Below, piece after piece: positions 7,064 through 38,964 of a DNA stretch of 44,730 nt. The notes under the pieces were generated by a model, which was not told the DNA's origin, ran no database searches, and saw only the letters and a list, made by a program, of their open reading frames with translations. Position 1 is the stretch's first letter. Every line of letters begins with the position of its first letter. A program made the translations under genes and the position numbers. Location: positions 1 to 44,730 of the IMG/VR virus record IMGVR_UViG_3300010354_000159; one strand, given 5' to 3'. The stretch comes from a virus.

Positions 7064-7192
7064 ATGTTCGTGATTCGTTATTTTACGCCTTATCAACAAG
7101 TCTGGAGAACGCAGTCATTTGATACACTAGATGAAGCAAAACGCATGGTAGAGTTCTATCGTTCTTGTGGATCTCCTGCTGAGTTAGTATAA
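7064..7192 (+). CDS. Small hypothetical protein (42 aa)
   Basis: Begins at ATG 7064, directly after the previous stop, and ends at TAA 7190-7192, six bases before a terminator. The product (MFVIRYFTPYQQVWRTQSF...) reads as a strand, turn, strand and helix (DTLDEAKRMVEFYRSCG), the pattern of tiny standalone phage domains. Last gene of the first small-gene array. Confidence 0.6.
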   Translation: MFVIRYFTPYQQVWRTQSFDTLDEAKRMVEFYRSCGSPAELV

Positions 7193-7197
7193 GATAG

Positions 7198-7223
7198 AGA
7201 CACCATGTAAGGTGTCTTTTTTT
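7198..7223 (+). terminator. Rho-independent terminator
   Basis: AGACACC (7198-7204), loop ATGTAA, GGTGTCT (7211-7217), followed by a run of T to 7223. A seven-pair stem with a T run. It ends the array of small genes and separates it from the noncoding locus that follows. Confidence 0.9.
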
Positions 7224-7305
7224 ATGCTCAAAAACACAATATAACGATAAAATGATATAAAAAACGTTTATAAATGTGTTTTTAAATGTATATGAGCGTT
7301 TTATC

Positions 7306-7349
7306 TTTTCCACAATAAATGTGGAAAACGTATGGTAATCTGTGGAAAA
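7306..7349. repeat. Three cyanobacterial-type DnaA boxes (inverted and direct repeats)
   Basis: TTTTCCACA (7306-7314) and TGTGGAAAA (7320-7328) form a perfect 9-bp inverted repeat around ATAAA; a third copy, TGTGGAAAA, lies at 7341-7349. The last two extend to a 12-bp direct repeat, TGTGGAAAACGT, with a period of 21 bases (two helical turns). TTTTCCACA is the DnaA-box form I know from cyanobacterial origins. The pair at 7306-7328 could also form an RNA hairpin. Confidence 0.7.
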
Positions 7350-7446
7350 CGTTGTATCTGTGGGTGCTTTTATGTGCTTTTAAATGTGCTGAGACCTTGT
7401 GATTGATACCCTTTAAATGCTCCCAGGTCTTGTGATCTTAGCGTGC

Positions 7447-7475
7447 ATAATATCACACACTCGCAAAAATGTCAA
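7447..7475 (-). promoter_or_regulatory. Leftward sigma70-type promoter
   Basis: On the minus strand: TTGACA (7475-7470), exactly 17 bases, TATTAT (7452-7447). The expected start near 7440 gives a leftward transcript across the DnaA-box and AT-rich region, where no minus-strand gene is convincing. This is the only strong minus-strand promoter I found. It may make an RNA primer or a regulatory RNA. Confidence 0.6.
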
Positions 7476-7549
7476 CCCCCCGAGTATTATAAAATCCACA
7501 CAGTCGTCTCATTACATATAAGGACCTCTGATAAATATCCCTCAGGACG

Positions 7550-7578
7550 TTGACAATATTTCCCAGGTATCTTAAGAT
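7550..7578 (+). promoter_or_regulatory. Rightward sigma70-type (early) promoter
   Basis: TTGACA (7550-7555), 17 bases, TAAGAT (7573-7578); predicted start near 7585. It drives the gene at 7607, which has a GGAG ribosome-binding site at 7596-7599. The consensus -35 and ideal spacing point to recognition by the unmodified host RNA polymerase early in infection. Confidence 0.8.
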
Positions 7579-7606: not shown

Positions 7607-7780
7607 ATGTCAGTTGCGTATCATCAAGCACAGAAGCAGCGTTATAGAATCACCCTGGAACTTGATGTCTTAGGTGATTTTGATCCTCACAATTTAGACT
7701 GGGAGAGACTCTTTGATCTGCAACCAGCAGAGAAAGTTTCTGCGTATGTTGAGGACTTAAGTACTCCCGACCGTTGGTGA
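7607..7780 (+). CDS. Small hypothetical protein (57 aa)
   Basis: ATG 7607 is chosen because GGAG sits seven bases upstream and the longer TTG-started frame (7550) would begin inside the -35 hexamer. The product (MSVAYHQAQKQRYRITLELDVLGDFDPHNLDWERLF...) has a strand followed by acidic and aromatic residues, ending VEDLSTPDRW. The FDPHNLDWERLFDL phrase looks like a conserved core, but I know of no function. As the first gene after an early promoter it is a candidate host-takeover gene. Confidence 0.75.
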   Translation: MSVAYHQAQKQRYRITLELDVLGDFDPHNLDWERLFDLQPAEKVSAYVEDLSTPDRW

Positions 7781-13415: not shown

Positions 13416-16400
13416 ATGGCAGAAAAAAGAGTTCAGTTTAACCAGATAGTACAAAATCAACTTCCTTCTTATGTAAAGGAAGAATTTCCGTTAGTATCCG
13501 AATTTTTATCACAATACTATCTGTCACAGGAGTTCAAAGGAGCTCCAGTTGACTTAATTCAGAACATAGACCAATATATCAAGGTTGATGAGACAACTAA
13601 CCTTGTAGGGTCTTCTACGCTACTCTCAGACATCAATACACTTGACGATGAGATCTTCGTGGATCTCTCACTTTCCCCAACAGGAACAAATGGGTTCCCA
13701 GATTCATATGGATTAATCCAAATTGATGACGAGATTATTACATATACTGGAAAAACATACAACTCTTTTACTGGATGTATAAGAGGATTTTCTGGTGTAA
13801 AATCACTAAAGAAAAATAATTCTCCAGAAGAACTTACCTTTGAAGAAACGGCAGCAGCTGCTCACACTGCAGGAACAAGTGTTGTTAACTTAAGTTACTT
13901 ATTCTTAAAAGAATTTCTCTTTAAGACCAAGTATCAACTGCTTCCAGGATTTCACAATAGAGAATTATCCTCAGAGTTAAATCAAGCAACCTTTATTAAG
14001 CAAGCAAAAGATTTTTATAGTAGCAAAGGAACTGACGAATCTTTTAGCATTCTTTTCAGATCTCTTTATGGTGAAGATGTTCAGATCATAAGACCAAAGG
14101 ACTTCTTAATTAAACCATCTGAGGCAAACTATAAAATTACTCAAGACTTAGTAGTTGAGGCAATCTCTGGCAACCCAGAAGATATAGTTGATTCTATTCT
14201 GGTACAAGATCAATATGGGGATATTGAGACTGCATATTCTCCTATTGCAGATGTTCAAAAAATCCTATCAAAAGATGGGAAAGTATACTACAAACTCAGT
14301 TTGGATGCAGGGAATCCAAATGATGTCAAATTCAATGAATCACTCTATGGAAAATTTACTGTACATCCACAGACAAGATTGATTGGAGATGTTGATAGTT
14401 CCAATTCTACTTTAGATGTTGATTCTACGATTGGATTTCCAAGTTCGGGAAGTCTTAGAGTTACATATTCTGATGAAACTGAAGGAGTAGTAACATATTC
14501 ATCAAAATCAATCACTCAGTTTTTAGGATGCTCTGGTATTGAAGGAATTATCTATGATGAATCCACAATCAATTTGGATACCTATGCATATTCAAATACT
14601 TTTGCTGGGGATATAGTCAAACTTAGAGTAACTTCTGTTATTGATGACATAAGCGTTCAATCAACAACAAAGTATATTTCATCAAATGATACAGTAATTA
14701 TTAAAACATTGGGAGATAATGCAAAAGATACCCTATCAAATTCTTGGTATCTTAACATATCGCCAAAGTTTGAAGTTAAATCAATAGAATTATTAGATAA
14801 CTCAGATAAAACTTATCGTGTAAATCTTACTTCAAACCATTCATTTAAGATTGGGGATCAAATCCTAATTAAGAACAATTATGGTGTTGAAAGATCTTCT
14901 ACAATCACTGCAGTAAACTCTGAAAAAACATTTGTAATAAGAGGGCAGGGAGACTTATCTCTAACAGAATTGTATACTGTTAAGAGAAAACTTTTAAAGG
15001 TAGATTCTCCCAATTTTCCAAATCTTTCAAATCTGAATGCAAATGTTCAGAACGTATATAATATTTACAAGTCACCACAAAGAACTCTTGTTGCATCAAA
15101 TTCAATACCATCATATGTAAACCAACCTCTTCTTATCCAAGAAAGGTCTGTAGTATTTTCTGGCAATTTTATTGGTGAAGAAATCCAAATAACCACAAAT
15201 TCCGATCATGGATTTTACACTGGTGACATGGTTTACTATACACCAGAAAAAATAGAGAGCGTAACATATATTGAAGAACTACCTGTTGTAAACTCTACTG
15301 TAATAACATCACTTTTTGCTGAAGGTGTTTATTATGTTAAGAGAGTAAGTTCCACAATTGTAAAACTTGCAAGGAGTAAGACAGATCTTTATAACTCGCA
15401 GTTTGTTTCTATAGACAGTCTGACTCAAGTAAATTCAAATAAAATTGAGTATTATAAATTCAGATCAAAAACTCTTTTACCACAAAAACTATACAGAGAA
15501 TTTGTTGCTCCAACAAATGATAGCACAAAATATAAAACAGATCCAGGTAATACTGGTATGTTTATTAACGGGGTAGAAATTGTTAACTACAAATCCAAAG
15601 ATGTAATTTATTACGGGAGAATTGACAAGATTGATGTTACATCTGCTGGTAGTGGTTACGATATTATAAACCCACCCAATATCATAATTGAAGATTTGGT
15701 TGGTGTAGGTGCTACTGGATATTGTTCAGTAAAGGGATCTCTTTCCGAAATTAGGATCATAAATCCTGGTTTTGGTTATGCAGATACTCCAATAGTAAAA
15801 ATTAGTGGTGGTAATGGAGTCGGTGCAGTAGCGTCTGTAAACATGACGTTAGTGACACATTCCCCATCTTTCAATAGTGAGGTAGCATCATCCCTTGTTT
15901 CACTATCAAATTCAACTATAGGATTTTCAACTTATCACAAGTTTACAAATTCGGAAAAAGTAATTTACAGAACCAACGGACAAAAAAATATTACAGGTTT
16001 AACCACAGACTCTGCATATTACGTCCGTGTAGTAGATCCACTTAAGGTTACATTGCACAAAAACGAAGGAGATACTATTGCAGGTATCAATACTATAACC
16101 TTAGGATCATATGGTGTTGGAAATCATAATTTAGAGTCATATCAGAAAAAGTCTATTATTGGTTCAATTAACGTCGTAAATTCTGGATTAAATTACGAAA
16201 ATAAGAAAAGAACTTGTCAGATCTCTGGAATTAGCACTTCTAAAGACTCCATCATTATAGAAAATCATGGATTCCTTGACAATGAAATTATAAATTACAC
16301 AACTACTGGCTCTGTAGTTGGTGGATTAACGGATAATGCCGATTATTATGCAATTAAAGTATCTGATAGTGAATTTAGACTTTCCTCCCAAATAAATGGG

Positions 16401-19400
16401 GAGCATATCAAGTTCACTTCCGTTGGAGTAGGAACTCATATTTTCAATTATCCAGAAATAAAAGTAGAAGTATCTGGTCAGATTGGAATCTCATCTATTA
16501 GTGGTGAAACATTCTCTGCTGTTGTTCAACCAATTTTCAGGGGTGAAATAACTTCTGTACATGTTTCAAATAATGGAGTTGGGTATGGATCTTCCGAAGT
16601 TATTAATTTCAATAGACAACCACAATTTACACTTGATAGTGGATCTGGAGCACAATTAACTCCTATAGTTTCTAATGGAAAAATCGTTCAAGTATTGGTC
16701 AATTCATCTGGAAAAAATTATAATTCTTCACCAAATTTAATCATTCGGGGATCTGGATTTGGTGCAGTATTAACTCCAATCATTCAGAATGGGCAAATAA
16801 CAGAAGTAAAAATAATTCAAGGTGGTATTGGATATAGTCCACAAGATACAGCAATAATTATTGAAACTGCTGGATCTGGTGCCAAATTCAATGCATCAAT
16901 TCAGTCTTGGAATATTAATCTTTTCCAAAAATTATATAATTTATTAACTTCGGATGATGGTATTTTAACAGAATCATTAAACTCCGAATATGGATTACAA
17001 TATTCGCATTTATATGCACCAAGAAATCTAAGACAGATTGTTTATTCTTTGGATCAAGGTGGGAAAATACTCTATGGAAAAACTGATCTAAGAAAGGTTA
17101 ATGGAGTTGAAGTATCATCCACAGATCACTCACCTATCATTGGTTGGGCATATGATGGAAATCCAATTTATGGACCTTATGGATACACAACAAAAAGTGG
17201 TGGAACAGTAACCCAATTAAAGTCTGGATATGAGGTAGATTTAAAGGAAAATAGACCTCCGCTCAGCACTTTCCCTGAAGGATTTTTTGTTGAAGACTTT
17301 ACTCACTATGAAACAAATGATGATAAAGTTCTTGACGTAAGAAATGGAAGATTTTGCGTAACTCCAGAATTTCCAAATGGAACATATGCATATTTTGTAA
17401 CTTTAAACGCATCTTCAGATTCCTTTGGCAAATTTGTTGGATACAAGAGACCAGTATTTCCTTACATAATTGGCAATGAGTATAAATCAAAGCCAAATGA
17501 ATTTAACTTCAAGAAGATTTCAAATCAAGATGATTTAGATTTAAATAATACAATTTGGTTAAGAAATACTAATCAATATAATTTGATTGATGAGAACACC
17601 CAATACAATTACACATCTATACCAAATCTTTTAGATCAAACTGCAAGAATTAAGTTTGCATCTCCTGGATTTGTTGAAAGTATTGGTATAAGCACTGGAG
17701 GAAGCAACTACAAGATAAATGACAGTTTGGTATTTGATAATACCAATACACAAGGTTCCTCCGCTGAAGCAAAAGTATCTAAAATTGGAGGCAAATCTGT
17801 AAGTAATATCAGTGTTGCTTCTACAACTTTGACAAATGTTGAAGTATACCCAATTACGGAAAAGGGAACATTCACCCTGTTAACTCAAGATTATCACAAT
17901 TTAAAGAACTTAGATATAATTAAAGTTTCTGGAGTAAGCACTACTTCATCAAAAATTGAGGGAATTTACGAAGCTGGAATTAGCACTAATAAATTATCTT
18001 TAAGATCTGGAATTGGATCAGCATCTTATACTGGAATAGTCACTTATATTTCAGTATTTGGTAATCTAAATTATCCAACAATAAAGGAAAATGATATCCT
18101 TCAAATTGGAATTGAAAAGGTAAAGGTATTAAATGTAGACAAAACATACTCCAGATTAAGAATTCTTAGAGGAGTTGATGGTTCTATTGGAATTTCCCAT
18201 ACTGCCACCGAGACCTTGTATGAGGTTTCCAAAAAAATCAATATTAATGTTGGTTTTGATACAACATACACATATAAGGTAAACAAAGAACTTTATTTTT
18301 ATCCCCAGGAATCTGTTGGTGTTGGAACCAGATCTGGTGTAGGAATTGGATCAACTCTGTCAATAAACACTCCATCTGGCATTACTTCAATTTTTATTCC
18401 AACTAAAGCAATTTATATTCCAAATCATGGATTAGAGACTGGCGACCAAGTAAATTACTACACAAACGGTGGTAGTGCAATTGGAATTTCCACGAATGGA
18501 ATTTCAACTTCCATGTCAATTTCTAATGGATCTGTTCTTTTTATTGCAAAAATTGATAATAATTTAATAGGTCTCTCTACAGTTAAAGTTGGAGTTGGTT
18601 CTACTGGAAACTTTGTTGGCGTTACTAGCACAACATCTTCACAATCAACACTATTCTTTACGGGAATTGGAACTGGCGTATACCATAGTTTTAAAACAAA
18701 TTATGAAAAGTTAATTACTAAAGTAACAAAAAACACTGTTACAGTAAGCACTTCACAAACTCATGGTTTGTCAGTTGGTGATCTTGTATCAATAAATGCA
18801 AATCCAAAATCTGAGACAACACATACTATAGTATACAGTGATTATAATAGAAGAGTTTTAGTTAATCCTCAAAACTTTATCTCATCTGGTATTAATACAT
18901 TATCTTCATTAATCAATATCCCAAATCATGGATTTGTTTCTGGGCAAAAAGTAATTCATACAGCAACTGCCCCCGCAGTAGGTCTAAACGATAATAAATC
19001 GTATTATGTAATTTCAATTGATAATGATAATATTAAACTATCAAACTCATATTCAGATTCTTTAAGTGTAACTCCAAATTATATTGGTATTACAAGTGCA
19101 TCAAATGGAACTTTATCTGCAGTTAATCCTCCAATAACAGTATATAAAAATTCAACTGTAACATTTGATCTATCAAGCAATACGTTATCTTATGAAAACC
19201 AAGCAACTCAATATTCTGCGTTTGAATTGAGATTCTATAAGGATTCTAAGTTTAAAGAATTATTTGATAAGACTGATGAGAATAAAGTTTTTGAAGTTCA
19301 AAGAAGTGGTAGAGTTGGAATTTCTTCAGATGCAAAAGTTATTTTAACCGTCAACGAAAACTTCCCAGAAAAACTTTACTACAATTTAGTTCCTGTATAT

Positions 19401-22400
19401 GAAAGCAATATTCCAGTTTATAAGGAAGAAATTTATGTTGATGAAGATTCAATTTCAAATAATCAAATTCAGGTAAAAAATAGTTATTACAATGGCGAAT
19501 TTTCTATTAGAAGCACGCCAACAGATTCTTCCTTTACTTATGATTTAGCAGAATATCCAGAGGCAGTATCTTATGGATCCTCAACATCTGAGATATCTTA
19601 TTATACAACTTCAGAAACTGCTTTTGGACCTATTGCAGATATTAAGATATTCAATAGAGGTAGGAATTACTATTCTTTACCTGGAATTTCTACAGTAACT
19701 ACAGCGTCTGGATCTGGAGCTCTTCTTGAAGTAAATAGCAGTACAATTGGAGTAACCAAAAAAATAGTAATTAAGGATATTGGCTTTGATTTTCCTTCAG
19801 ATTATACTATGAGACCAAGTGCATCTTTACCAAAGATTGCCCAGATAGAATCCTTAGCATCCTTTGAGAGTATTGGCATCACATCTTTCGGAAGAGGATA
19901 TAATACAGCACCATCTCTATTAGTATTTGATGGAAAAACAAATGAGTTAGTTCCAGAGGTTGATCTGAAATACACTCTTGGAGACGGCAACGTAACAATT
20001 TTAAAGAATACATTTGGAATTAGTAATGTAACTCCAAGAATACTGCCAATTCACAATTCAAATGGTGTTGGTATTTCTTCAATTAGTTTTAATAGCACCT
20101 CAAAAGATGTTACTGTAACTCTTGCTGTTGGATTTAGCACTGCAGATTCATTCCCATTTGCAGTAAATGATAAAGTATTAGTTGAGAACGTTAGCGTAGG
20201 TGTTAATTCTGAAGGAAAAGGATACAATTCTGAAAACTATGATTATCAACTTTTTACAATCAAGTATGTAAATGAAAACAGAGGTGGAATTGGAATTGTC
20301 ACCTTTAGTTTGGATGGATTTTTAGAAGAATCTGAATATCCAGGAAATTTCAATGCATCAAATTCTTCTGGAAGAATTATTCCAGAAAAACATTTCCCAA
20401 TATTCAATCCAATTTTAGTAAAAAATAATTTCATTGAAGGAGAAACTGTAAGATCAAATTCTGGAATTGGTTATGTTGAAAGTTGGGATTCAAAAACAAA
20501 TTATCTCAAGATAGTAACTAACGAGGATTTTGTTTCTGGAGAAATTATTGAAGGATTAACTTCAAAGTCTCAGGGAATAGCATCCACAATAACTTCATAT
20601 AATTCATACTTTACAACAAATTCCTCATCCTTTGTTGAAAATGGGTGGCAAAATTATATCGGTTTCCTAAACGATAATCTACAAAGAATTTCTGATAATG
20701 ATTACTATCAGAATTTTTCATACTCTATCAAATCAAAAGTGGATTATGAGACATGGGATGATGTAGTCAGTTCGTTAAATCACTCAGTAGGATTTAAGAA
20801 GTTTGGTGATTATCAATTAGAATCTTCATTACCTTCTGGAGGTTCTCGTTCAATGATTGTTGGACTATCTACAGATGTAACTTCATTTGAAGTTTCTACT
20901 GATATTATCAGTGTTGTAGATTTGAATTGTGTTTATGATTTTGACCTTGTTTCTGAAAATTCTTTAAATATTGGATCAAATATTATTTCAAGCGAAGTAA
21001 CTTTTGCAAATAGAGTTCTGACAGATTATTTTGAATCTGTTGGAAATAGAGTTCTATCAATTGATGATATTAGTGGGTTATTTAACAGTAATCCAAGATC
21101 AAGTAAGTTTAGTGAAGTTCATAGATTTCCTCTTTCGGATGCAAGAGCACAAAAATATGTAATGTTTATTAGGGATAAGAGATATGAACAAAGAAGACAA
21201 TTGATGCTCGTATCTCTTGTTCATAATAATACTTTTGGATTCTTGAATCAATATGGAAGAGTAGAATCTGATTATGATTTAGGATCGTTTGATTTTACTA
21301 TTGAGGGTAGTGAAGGAATTGTTCAATACTATCCAACAAAATTCTCGGTAAATGATTATGATGTAACTTCTCTTGTTTTCAACATCCATGATGAAATTAT
21401 CCCGAATGGGGGAATAAACCTTGGAGGGATTGTAGATATTGATACAAGTAATGTTTCAATTCCTTCAGGATCTGGAACAATTATCAGCATTCCGAATACA
21501 TATACTTCCATTAAAGGTATTACTAAAATTATTGGTGATGGTAATAATTATCAATTCAATGAGTTTAATCTTGTCCACGACGGATCAGAAATTGAATTTA
21601 TTGAATATGGACAATTAACCACATCAACTCTCAGTGTTAATAGTGATTCTGGTTTAGGAACATATAGACCATACTTTGCAGGGTCACAATTAAAGGTTGA
21701 CTTCATTCCTCATGCAGGAATAGGAGTCACTGCTAACACAATTTATATTGCAATCACGGACAATTCTTCTTCTGGAATTGGAACTATTGATTTGAAACAT
21801 GCTCGTTTGGGAGCAAGATCAACTTCTATAGCATCAACTGCAACACCATCACCAGTCGTAATCGCAGATTATCCAGACAATTATGAGGGTGCATATATGA
21901 TTGTTCAGGTTTCTGACCTGACAAATAATAGGCATCAACTTTCAGAAATTACTGTGATTGATGATGATAGCAATGATGTTTATATTTCAGAATTTGCAAT
22001 TATTGAGACGGATTCGACATTAGGAACTATTGGTGGTATTCGCCCATCAATTACTCAAATAACATTTACTCCATTACCAAATATAGATGTATCCGTTAAA
22101 GTTTACTTTAATGCTCTTAGATACGAAGATGATCTAAAAGATACTTTGAGTATTGACAATGCAAATATTGAATCAAATTATGGCGTATATTATGGAACAA
22201 ATAGAGATATTAGAAGATCTTTTGAGTTGACTAATAACACATATCCAATTTTCCAAAGATACTTTGAAGGAAATAATCCAAACGTCGTAAATGTTTCAGA
22301 TAACACCATTCAAATTGCAAATCATTTCTTTGTGACTGGTGAGGAAATTGTATATACCAATGCTGGAACAGGTTCATCAGAAGCGATTGGTATTGGAACA

Positions 22401-25400
22401 ACAAGTTTTGCGGGAATTGGAATTACTGATAAACTACCATCATCAATTTTTGTAGTCAAAGTAAATGAAAATTATATTAAACTTGCAAGAAATGCTGAAG
22501 ATGCTCTTCTCAATGTTCCAAAGATTATAGATTTGACAACGGTTGGAATTGGAACATCACATACTTTCACATCAACAAATCAAAATCCAAAAGTAATTGT
22601 TGCTCTTGATAATATTATACAATCACCTGTTGTTGCAACTGCATTGACAAGTTCATTGTCTGTCAGTTTGACAACTGTTGAGGATATTCTCTACTTCACT
22701 GGAATATCTTCATTCTTTGGTGGAGACTTGATTAGAATTGGCAACGAAATCATGAAGATTGAATCTGTAGGTGTTGGTAGCACCAATGCAGTGAAAGTTC
22801 AAAGACCTTGGCTTGGAACAAATGTTTCTGGATATTCTACAGGCACTTCTGTCACTAAGGTAACAGGAAATTATAATATTGTCAATAACACTATTAATTT
22901 TGTAGAACCTCCATATGGAAATCTACCATTTAGTAGTACAACTAATGCTCCAGATGATAGGGATTGGGTAGGAATTTCTACAGGATCAAGTTTCCAGGGA
23001 AGAGTTTTCTTAAGATCTGGATTCCCGAATGCATCATTTGAAACATATTCAAGAAATTATATTTTTGATGATATTTCAACTCAATTTGATGGAAGTAAGA
23101 GAAGTTTTGATTTAAAATCAAACACATCAAATGTTACAGGATTCTCAACAGAGAATGCAGTCATTCTTATAAATGATATCTTCCAAGGTCCTGGATTAAC
23201 GTATGATTACACTCTTGCAGAAACTGCTGGAATAAGCTCAATAAGATTTACTGGAACTGCGACTTCATTCCGTTCTGATGTAAATACATCAAATCTACCA
23301 GTTGGTGGGGTAATAGTTTCTGTAGGTTCAACAGAAGGATTTGGATATCAACCATTAGTTTCTGCTGGAGGAACTGCTATTGTTTCAGTTGCAGGAACAA
23401 TCGCATCTATCAGCATTGGCAACAGTGGATCTGGTTATCGTTCTGGATCTCAAGTTGTTAGGGTTGGAGTTGCTACTTCTTCGGTTTATACTCCAAATAT
23501 TCATTTTATTGGAACTGCAGTAGTTAGTGGTGGTCATGTTGTAAGTATTGCCATAACAAATCCTGGTGTTGGATATACTGCAACAAATCCACCTTTAGTT
23601 GTAATTGACGATCCACTGTCATATTCAGACATTCCAGTAATTTATAGTTCAGGATATTCTGGTCTGGGAACTGAAGCAAAAATTGACATAGTTGTTGGAT
23701 CAGGAACAAGTGTAGTTGATTTTGAAATCAAAAATAATGGATATGGATATGGTCAGAGCGATATACTGACGATTCCCGTTGGTGGTGCAACTGGCATTCC
23801 AACAACATCTGGATTTAAAGAATTCCAAATAAGTGTTCAAAAGACCTTTGCGGATAAATTTACTGGATGGTCTTTAGGTGAACTTCAAGTCTTAGACAAT
23901 CTCAATGACTTATTTGATGGAGAAAGAGTTGTTTTCCCAATTACAATATCGGATAACATAGTTACGATTAGATCTTCTCAAGGATCAAATGTTAATGTGG
24001 AAGATACTCTTCTTGTCTTTATCAATGATATTCTTCAAGTTCCAGGAAAGGCATACAGTTTCCCTGGAGGAAGTACTATAACATTCAAGGAAGCACCAAA
24101 AGAAGGTGATACATCTAAACTATTATTCTACAAGGGAAGTGGTGTAATTGATGTTATTGAAAGGAATATTCTTGAGACTGTTAAGACTGGTGATGAATTA
24201 ACTATTGGATATGATTCTTCTATTGGACAATCACCAATACTTCAGGAAAATTCAAGAGTTGTTTCCAGTGTAAATTCAACTGACTTGGTAAGCACAAATC
24301 CTTATTTTGGTCCAGGAAATACAGATGATGACACATTACTAAGACCAGTTACTTGGTGTAGACAAACCGAAGATAAAATAATTGATGGAAAAGAAGTTGC
24401 AAAAGATCGTATTCTCTACGAACCTATTATTAATCCATATGCATATGTAATTCAACCAGTTGGACTTGGATCAACGACTGTTTACGTTGATAACTTAAGA
24501 CCATTCTTTAACCAACAAAATGAGAGTAGCATTTCGTTAACCTTCCAAAATAAAGTTACTATAGATTCTCAGGATACTAAGGTTGGTGCATATGCCACCG
24601 CAATAGTATCAACAGCAGGAACTGTTTCTTCTGTTGTAATTTCAACAGGTGGTCTTGGATATAATTCTGCCCCTGCAGTAACAATCCAAAATCCAGTTGG
24701 ACTTGGGACAACTCAAAGAGCAACTGCGACTGCATTCATATCAAATACAACTGGAATTGTAACATCAATTTCAATTGTTGGTGCTGGAACTGGATATAGT
24801 CAATCTTCCCCACCAGTTGTTTTAATTGAACCACCTTCAGCAGATTCTGAAACTGATGATGTGACTACATATGCTGGAGATTCGGGAGTTATTGTTGGAT
24901 TTGGTCTTACGACAGTTCTGACCCAAAATTATATGATTTTTGATATGTATATTCCGCAGAATTCATATCTAAGATCAGCAAATCTTGTAGGAACAGCAGT
25001 CACAATTAGTTCTTTGGCACCCAATGACTATTTTGTTGTCCAAAATTCTAACGTTGGTATTGCAACAACATCCATTGTTTCTGGAAGAAGAGATGGATCA
25101 TATATTGGGATTGGAACTCAGTATGTTGATAACGTATATCAAGTTGATAGTTCCGAAATTGTCAGAACTAACGTAGTTGGCGTTGGAACTACTTACATTA
25201 GAAGAGTATTTGCAAGAATTATTGGAATTTCTTCAATTTCATTTAATTCAACATACATTACATTTGATTCTGGGATTATTAAGTTTGATTCCTCTCCTGG
25301 AATAGGATCCACATCCTATAGTGGAATAATAACATCCTCAAATTATTTTGGAAACTTTAGTTGGGGAAGAATATCACTTTCATACAGAAATGGAGATAAC

Positions 25401-25499
25401 TATTTCAATTTCTACGGTGAAAATGGTGTTGGTGGAATATCAACATCAGCAATAGTGAAAAGAACTTCTTCTCTGAAGTATTCGGATTACATTCAATAA
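13416..25499 (+). CDS. Giant virion protein at the gene 7 position (4027 aa)
   Basis: 12,084 bases, over a quarter of the window. Synteny (after gp6, before gp8) suggests the role of baseplate wedge gp7, but T4 gp7 has about 1030 residues, so equivalence is inferred only. N-terminal MAEKRVQFNQIVQNQLPSYV starts a likely wedge-binding part (1-220). A YHYH-type domain lies at about 1207-1350 (IIGWAYDGNPIYGPYGY, then VRNGRFCVTPEFPNGTYAYF). Most of the rest is built from repeats: about 13 GxGY...P units (near 746, 785, 1054, 1099, 1138, 1428, 2082, 2160, 3338, 3384, 3442, 3746, 3791); NHGF.TGD units (597, 840, 949, 1669, 1838, 2969); ID/IG.E...RG units (about 100, 1565, 3105); and two FDG...VFINDI.Q.PG modules (about 3216, 3495). 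Arg codons are almost all AGA. Probably a baseplate arm or adhesin. Confidence 0.9.
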   Translation: MAEKRVQFNQIVQNQLPSYVKEEFPLVSEFLSQYYLSQEFKGAPVDLIQNIDQYIKVDETTNLVGSSTLLSDINTLDDEIFVDLSLSPTGTNGFPDSYGLIQIDDEIITYTGKTYNSFTGCIRGFSGVKSLKKNNSPEELTFEETAAAAHTAGTSVVNLSYLFLKEFLFKTKYQLLPGFHNRELSSELNQATFIKQAKDFYSSKGTDESFSILFRSLYGEDVQIIRPKDFLIKPSEANYKITQDLVVEAISGNPEDIVDSILVQDQYGDIETAYSPIADVQKILSKDGKVYYKLSLDAGNPNDVKFNESLYGKFTVHPQTRLIGDVDSSNSTLDVDSTIGFPSSGSLRVTYSDETEGVVTYSSKSITQFLGCSGIEGIIYDESTINLDTYAYSNTFAGDIVKLRVTSVIDDISVQSTTKYISSNDTVIIKTLGDNAKDTLSNSWYLNISPKFEVKSIELLDNSDKTYRVNLTSNHSFKIGDQILIKNNYGVERSSTITAVNSEKTFVIRGQGDLSLTELYTVKRKLLKVDSPNFPNLSNLNANVQNVYNIYKSPQRTLVASNSIPSYVNQPLLIQERSVVFSGNFIGEEIQITTNSDHGFYTGDMVYYTPEKIESVTYIEELPVVNSTVITSLFAEGVYYVKRVSSTIVKLARSKTDLYNSQFVSIDSLTQVNSNKIEYYKFRSKTLLPQKLYREFVAPTNDSTKYKTDPGNTGMFINGVEIVNYKSKDVIYYGRIDKIDVTSAGSGYDIINPPNIIIEDLVGVGATGYCSVKGSLSEIRIINPGFGYADTPIVKISGGNGVGAVASVNMTLVTHSPSFNSEVASSLVSLSNSTIGFSTYHKFTNSEKVIYRTNGQKNITGLTTDSAYYVRVVDPLKVTLHKNEGDTIAGINTITLGSYGVGNHNLESYQKKSIIGSINVVNSGLNYENKKRTCQISGISTSKDSIIIENHGFLDNEIINYTTTGSVVGGLTDNADYYAIKVSDSEFRLSSQINGEHIKFTSVGVGTHIFNYPEIKVEVSGQIGISSISGETFSAVVQPIFRGEITSVHVSNNGVGYGSSEVINFNRQPQFTLDSGSGAQLTPIVSNGKIVQVLVNSSGKNYNSSPNLIIRGSGFGAVLTPIIQNGQITEVKIIQGGIGYSPQDTAIIIETAGSGAKFNASIQSWNINLFQKLYNLLTSDDGILTESLNSEYGLQYSHLYAPRNLRQIVYSLDQGGKILYGKTDLRKVNGVEVSSTDHSPIIGWAYDGNPIYGPYGYTTKSGGTVTQLKSGYEVDLKENRPPLSTFPEGFFVEDFTHYETNDDKVLDVRNGRFCVTPEFPNGTYAYFVTLNASSDSFGKFVGYKRPVFPYIIGNEYKSKPNEFNFKKISNQDDLDLNNTIWLRNTNQYNLIDENTQYNYTSIPNLLDQTARIKFASPGFVESIGISTGGSNYKINDSLVFDNTNTQGSSAEAKVSKIGGKSVSNISVASTTLTNVEVYPITEKGTFTLLTQDYHNLKNLDIIKVSGVSTTSSKIEGIYEAGISTNKLSLRSGIGSASYTGIVTYISVFGNLNYPTIKENDILQIGIEKVKVLNVDKTYSRLRILRGVDGSIGISHTATETLYEVSKKININVGFDTTYTYKVNKELYFYPQESVGVGTRSGVGIGSTLSINTPSGITSIFIPTKAIYIPNHGLETGDQVNYYTNGGSAIGISTNGISTSMSISNGSVLFIAKIDNNLIGLSTVKVGVGSTGNFVGVTSTTSSQSTLFFTGIGTGVYHSFKTNYEKLITKVTKNTVTVSTSQTHGLSVGDLVSINANPKSETTHTIVYSDYNRRVLVNPQNFISSGINTLSSLINIPNHGFVSGQKVIHTATAPAVGLNDNKSYYVISIDNDNIKLSNSYSDSLSVTPNYIGITSASNGTLSAVNPPITVYKNSTVTFDLSSNTLSYENQATQYSAFELRFYKDSKFKELFDKTDENKVFEVQRSGRVGISSDAKVILTVNENFPEKLYYNLVPVYESNIPVYKEEIYVDEDSISNNQIQVKNSYYNGEFSIRSTPTDSSFTYDLAEYPEAVSYGSSTSEISYYTTSETAFGPIADIKIFNRGRNYYSLPGISTVTTASGSGALLEVNSSTIGVTKKIVIKDIGFDFPSDYTMRPSASLPKIAQIESLASFESIGITSFGRGYNTAPSLLVFDGKTNELVPEVDLKYTLGDGNVTILKNTFGISNVTPRILPIHNSNGVGISSISFNSTSKDVTVTLAVGFSTADSFPFAVNDKVLVENVSVGVNSEGKGYNSENYDYQLFTIKYVNENRGGIGIVTFSLDGFLEESEYPGNFNASNSSGRIIPEKHFPIFNPILVKNNFIEGETVRSNSGIGYVESWDSKTNYLKIVTNEDFVSGEIIEGLTSKSQGIASTITSYNSYFTTNSSSFVENGWQNYIGFLNDNLQRISDNDYYQNFSYSIKSKVDYETWDDVVSSLNHSVGFKKFGDYQLESSLPSGGSRSMIVGLSTDVTSFEVSTDIISVVDLNCVYDFDLVSENSLNIGSNIISSEVTFANRVLTDYFESVGNRVLSIDDISGLFNSNPRSSKFSEVHRFPLSDARAQKYVMFIRDKRYEQRRQLMLVSLVHNNTFGFLNQYGRVESDYDLGSFDFTIEGSEGIVQYYPTKFSVNDYDVTSLVFNIHDEIIPNGGINLGGIVDIDTSNVSIPSGSGTIISIPNTYTSIKGITKIIGDGNNYQFNEFNLVHDGSEIEFIEYGQLTTSTLSVNSDSGLGTYRPYFAGSQLKVDFIPHAGIGVTANTIYIAITDNSSSGIGTIDLKHARLGARSTSIASTATPSPVVIADYPDNYEGAYMIVQVSDLTNNRHQLSEITVIDDDSNDVYISEFAIIETDSTLGTIGGIRPSITQITFTPLPNIDVSVKVYFNALRYEDDLKDTLSIDNANIESNYGVYYGTNRDIRRSFELTNNTYPIFQRYFEGNNPNVVNVSDNTIQIANHFFVTGEEIVYTNAGTGSSEAIGIGTTSFAGIGITDKLPSSIFVVKVNENYIKLARNAEDALLNVPKIIDLTTVGIGTSHTFTSTNQNPKVIVALDNIIQSPVVATALTSSLSVSLTTVEDILYFTGISSFFGGDLIRIGNEIMKIESVGVGSTNAVKVQRPWLGTNVSGYSTGTSVTKVTGNYNIVNNTINFVEPPYGNLPFSSTTNAPDDRDWVGISTGSSFQGRVFLRSGFPNASFETYSRNYIFDDISTQFDGSKRSFDLKSNTSNVTGFSTENAVILINDIFQGPGLTYDYTLAETAGISSIRFTGTATSFRSDVNTSNLPVGGVIVSVGSTEGFGYQPLVSAGGTAIVSVAGTIASISIGNSGSGYRSGSQVVRVGVATSSVYTPNIHFIGTAVVSGGHVVSIAITNPGVGYTATNPPLVVIDDPLSYSDIPVIYSSGYSGLGTEAKIDIVVGSGTSVVDFEIKNNGYGYGQSDILTIPVGGATGIPTTSGFKEFQISVQKTFADKFTGWSLGELQVLDNLNDLFDGERVVFPITISDNIVTIRSSQGSNVNVEDTLLVFINDILQVPGKAYSFPGGSTITFKEAPKEGDTSKLLFYKGSGVIDVIERNILETVKTGDELTIGYDSSIGQSPILQENSRVVSSVNSTDLVSTNPYFGPGNTDDDTLLRPVTWCRQTEDKIIDGKEVAKDRILYEPIINPYAYVIQPVGLGSTTVYVDNLRPFFNQQNESSISLTFQNKVTIDSQDTKVGAYATAIVSTAGTVSSVVISTGGLGYNSAPAVTIQNPVGLGTTQRATATAFISNTTGIVTSISIVGAGTGYSQSSPPVVLIEPPSADSETDDVTTYAGDSGVIVGFGLTTVLTQNYMIFDMYIPQNSYLRSANLVGTAVTISSLAPNDYFVVQNSNVGIATTSIVSGRRDGSYIGIGTQYVDNVYQVDSSEIVRTNVVGVGTTYIRRVFARIIGISSISFNSTYITFDSGIIKFDSSPGIGSTSYSGIITSSNYFGNFSWGRISLSYRNGDNYFNFYGENGVGGISTSAIVKRTSSLKYSDYIQ

Positions 25500-28786: not shown

Positions 28787-31700
28787 ATGTCACAGGAAAC
28801 AAATCTAAATGTATCTCCATATTTTGATGATTTTGATGCAAACAATGACTATTATAAGGTTCTATTCAAGCCTGGATATCCTATTCAATCTAGAGAATTA
28901 ACAACTCTACAGTCAATTCTACAGAATCAAATTGAGAAATTTGGACAGGCTTTCTTTAAAGAAGGTGCAAAGGTAATCCCAGGTAATACTGGATACAATG
29001 CACTATATTACTGCGTTCAATTAAATAGCACATATCTTGGTGTTCCTGTTGAAGCATATGTTGACCAGATAGTTGGAACAAAAATCACTGGTCAAACTTC
29101 TGGCGTTACTGCCGTTGTAGAAAAAGTTCTTCTTTCAAGAGATTCTGAAAGAGGAAATACTACACTATACATAAACTACATTGGTTCAAGCACTCAGAAT
29201 AATTCATCTCAACAATTCCTTGATGGTGAAACACTAATAACAACTGCCACAATTTCTTCAGGTCTTCTTGGCAATACAACTATTGCTGCTGGACAACCAT
29301 TTGCAAACACTATTGCCAATGGTGCTTGTGCTACTGGATCTAGTTTTTCAATTTCAAATGGCGTATATTTCATCAGAGGTCAGTTTATAGCAGTAAATGA
29401 TGAAATTATTATTCTTGATCAATATGGCAACAAACCAAACTATAGAGTTGGTCTGTACGTAAACGAAGAAATTGTTAACTCAGATATTGATGAAACTCTA
29501 AATGATAATTCTCAGGGATTTAATAATTATGCAGCACCAGGAGCAGATAGATTAAAGATTAGTGTTTCTTTATATAAGAAGAGTCTAACAGATTTTAATG
29601 ATAATGGATTTGTTGAATTAGCAACTATCAAAGAGGGAGTTGTTAGATCACAGCAAAAATCTGCTGGTGGCGCAGCTGGTGGTGTTGCATATCAAGATTG
29701 GACAGACATCTTAGCAAGAAGAACTTACGCAGAATCTGGCGATTACTATGTAAATCCTTTTGATATTTCGCTCAAAGAGTCTTTAAATGATAATCAAGGA
29801 AATCGTGGCATATTTAATGAGGGTCAATTTACTTATGGTGGATCCACACCAACCGATGACTTAGCAATATATCAAGTTTCTCCAGGTAGAGCTTTTATTA
29901 GAGGTTATGATATTGAAACAATATCACCAACTTTCTTAGATGTTGCAAAACCTAGAACAACTGCAACCTTAGAAAATCAGGCAATCAATTATAATACTGG
30001 TCCAACATTTAAATTAAATAGAGTATTTGGATCTCCTACTGTTGGAATTGGAAATACATACGTCTTGAGTCTCAGAGATTCAAGAGCAGGAACCTCACAG
30101 ACTACAGCACCTGGAAAGGAAATTGGTGTTGCAAGAGTATATGACTTTAAACTTGAGTCTGGATCTTATAGTAATTCAAATTCAAACATTAATGAATGGA
30201 ACATTGCACTTTATGATGTGCAAACAGTTACAGAAATTACTCTAAATGAACCCATTACATTAAATGTTCCTGCAATTATTAAAGGAAATAGCAGCGGAGC
30301 AACAGCATTCCTCAAATCTTCAGTTTCAAGTTCAAATCTAATATCAGTTTATGAGAAAAAAGGAGACTTTATTCTCAATGAGTCATTTACTGTCAATGGA
30401 ATTTCTAACGGCAGAGTAGCAACAGCAATTACTTCATACGGATTATCTGATGTAAAATCGGTATTTGGTCAAGTTGGCACTGCAGCAACATTCTCAGCAG
30501 ACACTGTTCAGTCAAGTTCCTTCATTGTTGGTATTGCATCAATCAGCCCAGTTTCTGGTGGTATTAGCACAGTAAAGAGTACCAATTTAACTTTCCCAAC
30601 AAATATTAAAGTTGGCAATATTGTAAGATATAGTGATGTAACAAGTGTTGATCCAATTTATGCATCTGTTGCTGGAGTTGGGACAAATTTCATCACTGTT
30701 TCTGGTATTACGACTGTTACTGGAATATGCAATAACAGACTGCCATCTTCTTTCTTGTCGGTGGTAGATTTTACTGTTCTCAATACTTCTCTTGAGGCGT
30801 CTACAGATAACACATTATATACAAGACTTCCAAAAAATAATGTATCTAATGTAGATCTAACAGATGCATCCATTACGATTAGAAAATCATACACTGTAAA
30901 TATTTCATCAAATAGATTATCTACAGCAATTGACGCAGGCGCAAATCAAACATTCCTACCATTTGATGCAGAAAGATATTCTCTAATTAGATCGGATGGG
31001 ACCACAGAGGTATTAACTTCAGATAAGTTCTCATTCACAAATGCTTCAAGCACCCTACAAATCTATAATCTGGGATCTAATGATTCTGGTGCAACTCTAC
31101 TCACAACTATTAAAAAAATTAAGCCAAAAGCAAAAGTAAAGAGAAAGAATAGAGTAAATTCTATCGTAATAGACAAGTCAAAATATGAAGGATCTGGAAT
31201 AGGAGCAACTACATTTGATGATGGATTGGTATATGGTAATTATCCATATGGAACAAGAGTTCAAGATGAAGAAGTCTCTCTCAATGTTTCAGATATAATT
31301 GAAGTTTATGGAATTTTTGAGGCAATTGATTCATCCACAACCCCATCTGCCCCAACAATGGTCATTGCTGCTTCTGGAGGGGCAGTAACTCAGACAACAG
31401 ATTTAATAATTGGAGAAAAGTTTGTTGGACAATCCAGTGGTGCTACCGCTATTGTTGCAGAAAGGATAGAAAACTCTAAGATTTCTTTCCTATATAAGAA
31501 CGGAAATCTGTTTAGAGAAGGTGAAACTATTATCTTTGAGGAATCTAAGGCTCAGGCAACAATTACAACCTTAGATACTCCAAGTTATGATGTTTCATTA
31601 AACTTTAGCTTTACTAATGGACAAGAATCAACTTTCTACGATTACGGGGTCATCAAGAGAAAAGTATCTTCTCAAGAACCAGTAAGAAAAATTAAAGTAT

Positions 31701-34700
31701 ACTTCTCAAATGGGTTCTATGAGTCAACTGATGATGGTGACATTACAACAGTAAATTCATATTCTCAGTTCTCATACGGAAGAGATATTCAGACAGTAAA
31801 TGGAGTGAGAAATTCGGATATCTTAGATATCCGCCCCAAAACATCAGATTACACAGTATCTGAGGGATCAAGATCTCCTTTAGAATTTTATGGAAGAACA
31901 TTCAACTCTTCTGGAAATTCTGCTGCAAATATACTCGCATCCGATGAGTCAATTATTACAACATTCTCGTATTATCTTGGAAGAATAGATAGAATCTATC
32001 TCTCAAAAGATGGATCTTTCCAAGTAAAATATGGAACTCCTTCTGATAGACCAGAAAAACCAGTATCGGTTGATGATTCACTTGAGATTGCGACTATTAC
32101 TCTTCCACCATATCTCTACAATGTTTCTCAGGCTTCTATTCAGTTCCTGAACCATAAGAGATATAGAATGGCAGATATCAAGAATCTTGAGGATAGAATC
32201 AAGAGTCTTGAATACTATACAACATTGTCCCTCCTTGAGACAAATACATCAAACCTATTCATTCCTGATGGAGAAGGTCTCAATAGATTTAAGTCTGGAT
32301 TCTTTGTTGATAATTTTACTTCACTTCTTGCACAGGAAGAATCTGTAGAGTATAAAAATAGTATTGATATTGAAAATAAGGAGCTAAGACCACAACACTA
32401 TACAACTTCCATTGACTTAATCACTGGACCAGTTGAAGGAGTTGATCCAACAGCTGATTTGGCATTTGAAGATATTGAAGGAATTAATGTAAGAAAAACT
32501 GGCGATGTTATTACATTAGACTACTCAGAAGTTGAGTGGTTGAAGCAATCTTTTGCTACCAGAGCAGAAAGTGTAACTCCATTCTTAATTAGTTTCTGGC
32601 AGGGAACTCTTGAGTTAACTCCATCTACAGATACTTGGGTAGATACTGTCAGACTTGAAGCAAAAATTATCCAAACAGAGGGTAATTATGCAGAGACTCT
32701 ATCAAATGCAGTCAAGACTCTTAATGTAGATCCACAAACTGGATTTGCCCCTGTTGTTTGGAATGCTTGGCAAACAAACTGGACTGGTCAAGAGATTGTT
32801 AGAGGGACAAGAGAAAGAACTGTCGTTAGTGGTGGAGAATGGAGAGGTGGTGGTGGATGGATCGCCCAGGTGGACACTCAGACAACGACTGTTTTTAGGG
32901 ATGATTTATTAGAAATCAGAGATACTGGAGTACAAACTAGAACAGGTAATAGAACGATTATTACAGAACAATTTGATCAAACATCTGTTGGTGATAGGGT
33001 CGTTAACAGATCAATTGTTCCATACATGAGATCAAGGAATATTCAATTTATTACAAAAAAAGTAAAACCATTAACAAGATTATATGCATTCTTTGATGGT
33101 GTTAATGTCAGCAAGTATTGTGTTCCAAAACTATTAGAAATCAGTATGGTTTCTGGTGTATTTGAAGTTGGAGAAACTGTTGTGGGAACAGTTTCCAATA
33201 TTGGTTTGGGTGATAATATTAGAGCAGATATTCCTGGCATTACATTTAGAGTTGCACAATCAAATCATAGAGAGGGTCCATATAATGCAGCGTCTTTGAC
33301 ATTCCCACAAAATCCATACACTGGACAAACTTTACAGGGGACTTATTCATCAACATCCAATATTCTTAACATAGATACATTCTCTTTGGCAAATCAACCA
33401 CAGGGAAGCTTTAGTGGATGGGTAGAGTCTGGAATGAAACTTGTCGGAAGAACAAGTGGTGCTCAAGCAGTTATTACAAATGTAAGACTTGTTTCTGATA
33501 TTGGTGCAAATCTTTATGGAAATCTGTTCATTCCAAATCCAAACAACAACGCCCATCCCAAATTTGAAGTTGGAACAAAGACTCTAACATTTGTCAATAA
33601 TGATCAAAATGATCAAAATAATGCAACAACTATTGCTGAAGAAGGATTTACATCTTCTGGAACTTTAGAAACAGTTCAAGAAAATATCATTTCTGTAAGA
33701 AATGCAAGAATTCAAAACAAACAAGAATTTGAAGATAGAGCTGTTTCAAGAACAACTGGAACTCAAGTTGTAGGAAGTACTGTTCTTTCACAGTCAAGAA
33801 GAGATGTTGTTGTTGGATGGTATGACCCTCTTGCACAATCATTCTTAGTTGACAACTCAACTGGCATTTTCCTGACAAGATGTGATGTTTTCTTCAGAAC
33901 AAAAGATGATATGGATATTCCTGTCACTTTCCAGTTGAGAACTATGGAAAATGGTTTCCCAACTCAAAAAATTCTACCATTCTCTGAAATAACATTAGAT
34001 CCAGAACAGGTTACAACATCTGCAGACGGATCAGTATCTACATCATTTAATTTTTCTGCACCAGTTTATCTTGAAGGCGGTAAGGAATATGCAATTTGTT
34101 TAGCATCTAATTCCACAAAATATAGTGTATATGTATCAAGAATTGGTGAAAATGATCTTCTGACTCAGACTTATATTTCAAACCAACCATATCTTGGATC
34201 ACTATTCAAATCTCAGAATGCTTCAACTTGGGAAGCAAGTCAATGGGAAGATCTCAAATTTACATTATATAGAGCAGAATTTGCAACTTCTGGAACTGTA
34301 GAGTTCTATAACCCACAATTAACTGAAGGAAATAGTCAGATTGCAAATCTACTTTCAAATCCACTCAACTTAAGTTCCAGAAAGATTAGAGTATCTACTT
34401 CCATTGGAGTGACCGATTCTCAACTGAAGATTGGTAACACAATTTCACAACTTGGAACAAATGGAACTGGAAATTATGTTGGAAGTGCTGGAAGTGCCAC
34501 TGCAACTTTAAATATCATTAATGCTGGAATTGGATACACTCCCGCAAGTGGAGTTCTTCAGTTCAATAACGTAAACTTAACTTCAATTACTGGAAACGGT
34601 AGCGGAGCAACTGCTAATATAACAATTAGCAATGGAGTTGCTGTTGCCGCAACTATCTCTGGTGGTGGTAGTGGGTATATTGCTGGCGATGTTCTTGGTA

Positions 34701-37521: not shown

Positions 37522-38964
37522 ATGGCACTCAATCCTTTCTTTCTTCAGGGTTCTAAAGGCGAACAAAATCTTATTCAAGATTTGATTAATGAACAAATTA
37601 GAATGTATGGTGTAGAAGTTCACTATCTACCCAGAAAATTTTTAGTAGAAAAAACAGTTATAAAGGAAGTTATAGATTCTGCATTTGAGGATGCTTATCC
37701 AATAGAAGCATACTTAGAAAATTATGATGGATATGGAGATAATACTACTATTCTATCCAAGTTTGGAATTCAAGCATTAAATGAAGTAACCTTGACAATT
37801 TCAAGGGAAAGATTTGAAACTTATATTACACCCCTTTTGAAGAAAGAGAAAAATGTAAAACTTCGCCATAGACCAAAAGAAGGCGATTTAATTTATTTTC
37901 CTCTTGGTGATAGATTATTTGAAATTAAGTTTGTAGAGCACGAGCAACCATTTTATCAGTTAAATAAGACTTATACTTATACCTTAAAGTGTGAACTCTT
38001 CAGATATGAAGATGAGGATATTGATACTGGAATTTCAGAAATTGATGATGTTCTTGAGGGATCAGCATCTGGTGGATATGGATCAGAGTCTGGAGATAGT
38101 CTCACTGGAGTTCCTATTGGTCAGGTTTACCAACTAACAGTTGTTGGTGCTGCTGTAACTGCAACTGCATCTATCAGTATTGTGAATGGTGGAATTAGAT
38201 TCTTCACTATCAATAATAGGGGTGGTGGATATTCAAATGCACCAAGAGTTGCAATATCGTCAGCACCATCTGGTGGAGTTACTGGCGTTGGTTCTGCAAC
38301 GATGATTAGTGGAATTGTCGTATGTAATGAAAACGTTGATCCTGCTAAAAAGTCAGTTCAGTCTGTAGAAGTAATTAATGCTGGATATGGATACACAGTA
38401 GCACCAAAAGTTGCTTTCTATGGTGATGGTGTTGGTGCTGCTGCAACGTGTACAATCGGAGATGGTGTCCTATCACTTCCAGTAATTGGTAATGGTGGAT
38501 CTGGATATGTTAGCCCACCTACAATTACTTTTGTTGGAGTCTCTACAGTAAATATTTCAGCTGCAGCAACAGCGGTTGTAAGTGCCGCTGGATCAATAAC
38601 TCAAATCAGAATGATTGACTGTGGGGTTGGATATACTGTTGCACCTACTATATTGATTTCTCCCCCAAGTTCAGGTGGATCTGGAGACTATGAATTTAAT
38701 GAAGTTATTGTAGGATCTGCTTCAAGCACAAGAGCAAAAGTAAGAGCATGGAATAGTGTCACAAACATATTAGAAGTTTCAAATGTAACTGGACAATTTA
38801 TTGTAGGCGAAAATCTAATCGGAGAAACATCTGGAGCAAGTCATCCACTGAGAGTGGTTGATATAAATCCAGTTGATGATGGATATGCATCAAATGAATC
38901 AATTGAGGATGAAGCAGACCTAATTATAGATTTCTCAGAAAGAAATCCATTTGGAATGCCATAA
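37522..38964 (+). CDS. 14: Neck protein gp14 with inserted repeat domain
   Basis: 480 residues; T4 gp14 has 256. Residues 1-180 are the gp14 core (MALNPFFLQGSKGEQNLIQDL, ...KEGDLIYFPLGDRLFEIKFVEHEQPFYQLNKTYTYTLKCELFRYEDEDIDTG). Then come four GxGY...P repeat units (about 233, 288, 327, 369: RGGGYSNAPRVAIS, GYGYTVAPKVAFYG, GSGYVSPPTITFVG, GVGYTVAPTILISPP) and an SGASH-type unit, ending in ADLIIDFSERNPFGMP, the usual terminus. The insert has the same repeat family as the giant protein, probably a surface-exposed beta structure. Gp14 joins the neck with gp13. Confidence 0.92.
   Translation: MALNPFFLQGSKGEQNLIQDLINEQIRMYGVEVHYLPRKFLVEKTVIKEVIDSAFEDAYPIEAYLENYDGYGDNTTILSKFGIQALNEVTLTISRERFETYITPLLKKEKNVKLRHRPKEGDLIYFPLGDRLFEIKFVEHEQPFYQLNKTYTYTLKCELFRYEDEDIDTGISEIDDVLEGSASGGYGSESGDSLTGVPIGQVYQLTVVGAAVTATASISIVNGGIRFFTINNRGGGYSNAPRVAISSAPSGGVTGVGSATMISGIVVCNENVDPAKKSVQSVEVINAGYGYTVAPKVAFYGDGVGAAATCTIGDGVLSLPVIGNGGSGYVSPPTITFVGVSTVNISAAATAVVSAAGSITQIRMIDCGVGYTVAPTILISPPSSGGSGDYEFNEVIVGSASSTRAKVRAWNSVTNILEVSNVTGQFIVGENLIGETSGASHPLRVVDINPVDDGYASNESIEDEADLIIDFSERNPFGMP

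Follow-up and report, generated by a model that had tools for sequence, protein, structure and literature searches.

Clustered DnaA boxes at a fixed genome position suggest that many T4-like marine cyanobacterial viruses start DNA copying with the host initiator

Known origins and the cyanophage locus

The choice and opening of origins in T4-type phages is an open question, explicitly so for T4 oriE and its iterons: oriE combines an early promoter with evenly spaced 12-nt iterons in syntenic places, and its mechanism is unresolved (PMC3016281). The cyanophage locus described here resembles oriE in belonging to a T4-type phage and in having an early host-type promoter, evenly spaced syntenic repeats and small early genes adjoining. 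No protein is known to bind the oriE iterons, which differ from DnaA boxes, whereas the cyanophage repeats equal the box of the host initiator and are swapped for other modules between relatives; furthermore, the activity of oriE has been measured whereas that of the cyanophage locus is predicted from sequence. With T4 oriF and oriG, the locus shares a promoter directed into an A+T-rich unwinding element, as well as a candidate R-loop primer. Unlike these origins, it has a full sigma70 -35 element (TTGACA) in place of a MotA-type middle promoter, and the minimal sequence of oriF/oriG contains no initiator repeats of the kind present in the cyanophage locus.

The sequence-only reading that first drew attention to the locus took TTTTCCACA for the cyanobacterial form of the DnaA box, an identification that has experimental support: most cyanobacteria have TTTTCCACA as their DnaA box, and DnaA binding was observed in vitro in Cyanothece (PMC4674748). 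The origins of Cyanothece, Anabaena and S. elongatus, similarly to the phage locus, contain TTTTCCACA boxes beside AT-rich intergenic DNA (PMC4674748). Unlike these origins, the phage locus is not located beside dnaN or dnaA, its promoter points inward, and its boxes are mostly phased at 21 bp or arranged as an inverted pair at 23-35 bp. The oriC of marine Synechococcus itself differs from the phage locus in that its boxes are degenerate. Iteron plasmid origins of the P1, pSC101 and R6K type contain DnaA boxes, with the plasmid encoding its own Rep protein and DnaA acting as a helper; the features in common with the phage locus are the helix-phased repeats by an AT-rich region and the exchange of modules between relatives.

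In the literature searched (cyanophage and T4-like DnaA boxes and origins, with most subscription journals outside the coverage), no earlier report describes this locus and none maps an origin in marine cyanomyoviruses; DnaA is absent from the T4 initiation review, and software-predicted DnaA boxes are described in a single, unrelated Pseudomonas phage (PMC11512268). Cyanomyoviruses belong to the most abundant marine phages, and the findings presented here suggest that many of them start DNA copying with the host initiator, which is not known for T4-type phages. If it is host DnaA that opens the origin, replication of the phage would be coupled to a protein with control over the host chromosome as well, and infection could be linked to host growth or to the day-night cycle.

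The locus in the window

The window, that is, the whole stretch of 44,730 nucleotides analysed, is a fragment of a T4-like cyanophage from IMG/VR, and its nearest named matches are Synechococcus phages of the Kyanoviridae. The locus and its borders consist of the following features:

7196-7219, plus strand: intrinsic terminator of the rightward operon upstream; left border of the locus
about 7220-7305: AT-rich low-stability block, candidate DNA unwinding element
7306-7314, plus strand: DnaA box 1, TTTTCCACA, opposite in orientation to boxes 2 and 3
7320-7328, minus strand: DnaA box 2, TTTTCCACA, inside the 12-bp repeat TGTGGAAAACGT at 7320-7331
7341-7349, minus strand: DnaA box 3, TTTTCCACA, inside the 12-bp repeat TGTGGAAAACGT at 7341-7352
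7379-7403 and 7412-7436: 25-bp element TTTAAATGTGCTgAGaCCTTGTGAT, two copies
7432-7447, minus strand: conserved core TGCACGCTAAGATCAC (GTGATCTTAGCGTGCA on the plus strand), at the predicted leftward transcript start
7475-7447, minus strand: strong leftward sigma70-type promoter, TTGACA (7475-7470), 17-bp spacer, TATTAT (7452-7447), extended -10
7550-7578, plus strand: rightward early-type sigma70-like promoter, TTGACA-17-TAAGAT, serving the next gene
7607-7780, plus strand: 57-aa gene (MSVAYHQAQKQRYRITLELD...), which adjoins the locus in family 1 and was used for finding relatives

The three copies of TTTTCCACA within 44 bases, one inverted and two direct, that the sequence-only reading had described are indeed found at 7306-7349, and the reported 12-bp repeat with a 21-base period consists of exact copies of TGTGGAAAACGT, with boxes 2 and 3 located 21 bp apart. 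Only 0.88 copies of TTTTCCACA are expected by shuffles in the entire 44.7-kb window, so the occurrence of three within 44 bp is not due to chance; a fourth, isolated copy is located at 39533. The AT-rich stretch noticed beside the boxes includes a 60-bp part that is less stable than 99.9% of the 60-bp stretches of the window. The block shows a 12-bp tandem similarity (AAAACGTTTATAAATGTGT / AATGTGTTTTTAAATGTAT), and its right border is AAATGTATATGAGCGTTTTATC, which is common to relatives of all module classes. The promoter said to point into the locus is the leftward one at 7475-7447 (TTGACA-17-TATTAT with an extended -10), which is directed into both the boxes and the AT-rich block.

The extent initially proposed for the locus, 7224-7549, is appropriate with respect to the absence of genes and the bordering terminator and promoter; the right end has to be moved given that conservation extends to about 7606, at the start of the 57-aa gene. 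No credible gene is present inside the locus, the sole overlapping ORF of at least 50 aa (7083-7313, minus strand) being mechanical, and scanning of the locus yielded neither an Rfam match above the gathering score nor a tRNA. Between the divergent promoters of the window, at 7530-7537, there is a T4-type late-promoter-like octamer, GATAAATA; several relatives have TATAAATA in the same place.

Conservation of the boxes upstream of the 57-aa gene

The loci with the 57-aa gene downstream (family 1) were gathered from IMG/VR by protein alone, using the 57-aa gene and the 255-aa gene two genes downstream; after removal of near-copies, the set comprised 126 distinct upstream regions (60.6 kb). These regions contain 149 copies of TTTTCCACA, with at least one copy in 54 loci, at least two in 47 and at least three in 26. 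By comparison, 400 permuted 9-mers of the same composition have a mean of 0.77 and a maximum of 11 copies, and none of them is present in two copies in more than one locus. Among the 54 box-bearing loci, TTTTCCACA is both the most frequent 9-mer and the one most often repeated per locus.

Neighboring boxes on the same strand are separated by 21 bp in 15 cases, by 20 bp in 5 and by 22 bp in 5; distances of 42 bp are found in 6 neighbor pairs (9 when all pairs are counted) and those of 11-12 bp in 3. These spacings approximate 10.5n, or about two, four and one helical turns, and the same preference is apparent among the 29 distinct box-to-box sequences; the Rayleigh p value of this phasing is merely descriptive because the family 1 loci are related by descent. 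Helical spacing of the boxes thus favors a protein bound to double-stranded DNA and disfavors an RNA element. In the homologous stretch of S-SM2, boxes 2 and 3 are intact and retain the 21-bp spacing whereas box 1 differs by one change (TTCTCCACA). The complete S-SM2 genome (190,789 bp) contains three copies of TTTTCCACA, two of which are those at the locus, 21 bp apart.

A second family and cultured isolates

A pair of boxes in ACG-2014d led to the identification of a second family of loci (family 2), in which the downstream gene is unrelated to that of family 1 as judged by alignment. All 26 distinct loci of this family contain a box, and 23 contain at least two; altogether, there are 55 copies of TTTTCCACA in 10.9 kb compared to a control mean of 0.14. 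Most often, the boxes form an inverted pair, TTTTCCACA-N14-TGTGGAAAA, or such a pair about one turn further apart. The boxes are thus conserved by a wide margin in both families, an outcome of the search in related phages that the sequence-only reading had itself offered as a refutation test, and the observation of a DnaA-box cluster at a fixed genome position is confirmed, in a stronger form than that reading could see.

The downstream gene of family 2 was found in 265 isolate records, and boxes were read in the isolates named here. At least two boxes are present at the locus in 14 isolates, one per genus, from 14 genera of Kyanoviridae (S-SM2, ACG-2014d, S-MbCM6, ACG-2014g, ACG-2014a, S-H25, Syn9, S-RIM12, S-RIM2, S-SM1, ACG-2014b, S-RIM8, S-RIM14 and S-E7); S-SSM6b and S-SCSM1 have one exact box accompanied by near-matches. 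In 7 examined isolates (Bellamy, SynMITS9220M01, S-B05, S-SRM01, S-CAM9, DSL-LC03 and P-RSM1), there are no boxes at this place, and therefore DnaA cannot be essential for all. The locus represents a precise 300-bp target in cultured isolates with sequenced hosts, namely Syn9, S-RIM2, S-RIM8 and S-SM2; its genome position is about 52.57-52.60 kb in Syn9, about 48.1 kb in S-RIM2 and 58.07 kb in S-SM2.

ACG-2014d (NC_026923.1) additionally contains a second pair of DnaA boxes, at 37690 and 37701, 11 bp apart and approximately 900 bp from the main pair. In P-TIM68 (KM359505.1), an inverted box pair, offset by 14 bp like boxes 1 and 2 of the window, is located elsewhere in the genome (58194-58216), on the upstream side of a leftward promoter-like site rather than on its downstream side. 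In Syn9 (DQ149023.2, 52477-52797), the annotated gp86 and gp87 overlie the boxes and promoters and are probably not genes.

Promoter, core and AT-rich block in relatives

The leftward promoter (TTGACA, 17-18 bp, TATANT, extended -10) followed by the core AAGATNACAA is present in 111 of the 126 family 1 loci, whatever the module they carry. The -35 element is TTGACA in 100 of these 111 loci, so the middle-mode (MotA) promoter without a -35 consensus that is typical of oriF/oriG is not found here. In family 2, a TTAGC core is present in 26 of the 26 loci, with a weaker -10 and a less certain leftward promoter. Leftward ORFs in the 126 homologous loci are no longer than those in shuffled sequence, and accordingly, a leftward small protein gene was rejected. 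The element adjoining the leftward promoter (TTTAAATGTGCTCAGGTCTTGTGAT; 7379-7436 in the window) is 25-33 bp long and varies in copy number, reaching five or more copies (e.g., in L213, L241 and L321).

The least stable 60 bp of the locus belong to the lowest 0.1% in the window, 0.01% in S-SM2 and 0.7-2.7% in three other sequences. In family 2, the median gap between the low-stability block and a box is 1 bp vs. 37 bp at random; in family 1, the median distance from a box to the least stable 40 bp is not below random, and only the tail of the distribution is shorter. The block is found mostly to the left of the boxes in family 1 and mostly to the right in family 2, and in some loci (e.g., L196 and L295), boxes are present on both sides.

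A turn of the GC skew, a property of DnaA-dependent origins for which the sequence-only reading had proposed to look, is absent at the locus in S-SM2, ACG-2014d, ACG-2014g and S-H25. The extremum of the detrended skew is located 10-17 kb upstream and has the sense opposite to that of a bidirectional origin. Such a turn is of little diagnostic weight in phages that have many origins and whose replication is driven by recombination.

Exchange of modules in the slot

Family 1 phages that lack boxes have the same frame, with other sequences in the slot. The shared AAATGTATATGAGCGTTTTATC is followed by TTTTCCACAATGGTTGTGGAAAA in the DnaA-box module (module A; L282), by ATTCTCAATAAGTGTTAGTTTATTGAGAATCAATA in module B (L344) and by TTTGATAATTATTGTTATTAAGAGGTGATAATGATATGAATTCGTATCA in module C (L231). 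With these classes, which were defined after inspection of the sequences, module A is found in 54 of the 126 loci, B in 18, C in 26 and none of these in 29; A never co-occurs with B (0 loci, 7.7 expected, p 1.5e-5) or with C (0 loci, 11.1 expected, p 4e-8). Module B consists of inverted and then direct TTATTGAGAAT repeats (L344, L250, L160, L240 and others, as well as S-SRM01, L466, 233-239), and module C of TGATAATTATTGTTATTA followed by TGATAATGATAAGAATTCGTATCA (L231, L251, L342, L178 and others). Modules B and C show some, faint likeness to Fur-family (Fur/Zur-like) boxes, and one match to a module in WH7803 adjoins ABC-transporter genes that, judged by eye, resemble znuCB. A fourth arrangement, tandem TTCGTGATTAGATAAGATTCGTAT upstream of a homologue of the 57-aa gene, is seen in L134, L138, L181 and three more loci.

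The whole genomes of Bellamy and S-B05 (about 205 kb each) contain no TTTTCCACA; thus, the module is missing from these phages, not relocated, and the possibility that the cluster has moved elsewhere was rejected for both. Given that other modules occupy the same position in box-free phages, the DnaA module is exchangeable, and the slot is a cassette site for different candidate DNA-binding proteins.

Host DnaA as the candidate binder

WH7803 encodes one DnaA, in which domain IV is intact, including the motif SLPRIGDTFGGKDHTTV that presumably contacts the box. The dnaN-linked origin of WH7803 contains degenerate boxes only, with the degenerate forms TTTTCCACG, TTTTCCCCA and TTCTCCACA found in WH7803 and RCC307, and the affinity of marine DnaA for TTTTCCACA is therefore an assumption. 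A better match to the box in the host's own oriC was sought and discarded, the boxes of both WH7803 and RCC307 being degenerate there. In the regions upstream of dnaN in WH7803 and RCC307 (L456, L457, L458 and L462), two boxes abut at 9 bp (TTTTCCACGTTTTCCCCA).

No DnaA gene was detected in the three phage genomes tested (S-SM2, SynMITS9220M01 and Bellamy), which led to the rejection of a phage-encoded DnaA. The same three phages have gp59, so that their helicase-loading set is not short of a component that DnaA would have to supply, and a role of DnaA as a stand-in for a missing helicase loader was rejected as well.

A probable origin and its alternatives

Taken together, the boxes and their spacing, the low-stability block, the promoter with its core, the fixed position and the exchange of modules, all of which are read directly from the genomes, indicate that the locus is, on balance, probably a replication origin of T4-like cyanophages (Kyanoviridae) similar to T4 oriE, with host DnaA sites as the iterons. 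DnaA binding, melting, priming and the start of replication would all take place at the locus. The origin proposed in the sequence-only reading thus fits the anatomy and the conservation of the locus and has the GC skew against it. As in DnaA-dependent origins, there are clustered boxes (at least two) of the host-group consensus, an adjacent low-stability AT-rich element (strong in family 2, statistically weaker in family 1) and a host DnaA with an intact box-binding domain IV (in WH7803); as in oriE-type origins, there are an inward early sigma70 promoter (uncertain in family 2) and evenly spaced, syntenic direct repeats.

Under this scenario, right after infection, host RNA polymerase would transcribe leftward from the sigma70-type promoter, via the repeats, into the AT-rich block. 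Host DnaA would bind the boxes, which share one helical face and border the block on a single side or on both, and would help to open the block. The leftward RNA would stay paired (R-loop) or mark the open site, and would be extended as the leading-strand primer, with phage gp59, gp41 and gp61 loading on the strand that is displaced. The two host factors, RNA polymerase and DnaA, would be at hand ahead of the synthesis of any phage protein. Where boxes are lacking, the same slot would be occupied by another binding module. A tentative proposal, put forward with considerable reservation, is that the locus is a dedicated origin opened by host DnaA in which the cassette is swapped so that different phages recruit different host proteins to origins of one kind, DnaA here and perhaps Fur-family regulators elsewhere.

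Among the alternatives, the one that survives best is a regulatory region without a replication start, where host DnaA, or another host regulator in the case of the other modules, would control either the non-coding transcript that runs leftward or the early promoter that points rightward, allowing the phage to sense the replication or nutritional state of the host. Transcriptional control is a known activity of bacterial DnaA, the locus is flanked by divergent promoters, and modules B and C are somewhat similar to boxes of Fur-family proteins, which are regulators, not initiators. However, the boxes lie past the leftward start, at roughly 200-380 nt from the rightward gene, and their distances to the promoters vary with the copy number of the 25-33 bp repeat, which is atypical of sites for a repressor or activator. 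Nor would such a region account for the low-stability block next to the boxes, and a purely regulatory role appears unlikely.

It is improbable that the 9-mer is bound by a phage-encoded protein, or another host protein, of the same preference, in which case the origin would stand and the host initiator would fall. Such a binder would be compatible with the degenerate boxes of the host oriC and with modules B and C, which indicate that the slot serves non-DnaA proteins in other phages, but it would have to be a coincidence that dozens of diverged loci match the cyanobacterial DnaA box at all 9 bases, and exact boxes occur both singly and in pairs, in both orientations.

The sequence-only reading had also considered a decoy, with the boxes titrating host DnaA and thereby stopping replication of the host chromosome. 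The boxes are perfect matches to the consensus, better than those in the host's own origin, and are carried by DNA that multiplies during infection. Titration, however, requires number, not place or phase, and does not call for an exchange with modules of other sequence, whereas the boxes number only 2-6 per phage genome and are found at a single site, in phase with the helix and next to a melting block. Given the few boxes and their conserved spacing and position, an origin is more likely than titration, which, on its own, is quite improbable.

Finally, a structured small RNA gene or terminator, with TTTTCCACA-ATAAA-TGTGGAAAA forming a hairpin in the leftward RNA, appears extremely improbable and is for the most part refuted by the occurrence of the boxes as direct repeats in relatives: a 9-bp stem can form between boxes 1 and 2 of the window, but the same-strand boxes in most relatives cannot pair, the fold is only mildly better than those of shuffles (z -1.89) and matches no Rfam family, conservation is low beyond the promoter start, and the stem is not followed by a T run.

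Additional observations

The IMG/VR-wide scan for box pairs includes unrelated phages and served as a lead, not as statistics. Among the matches listed, L037, L057, L074 and L110, contigs that do not look like cyanophages, have the common AAAGTTTTCCACAGG...GGGTTTATAAGATTTGCCCTGTGGAAAA, another recurrent arrangement of DnaA boxes in viruses among the matches listed. Elsewhere in the window, positions 13416-25499 and 28787-36259 are occupied by single ORFs of 4027 aa and 2490 aa, respectively, which is unusual for a cyanomyovirus.
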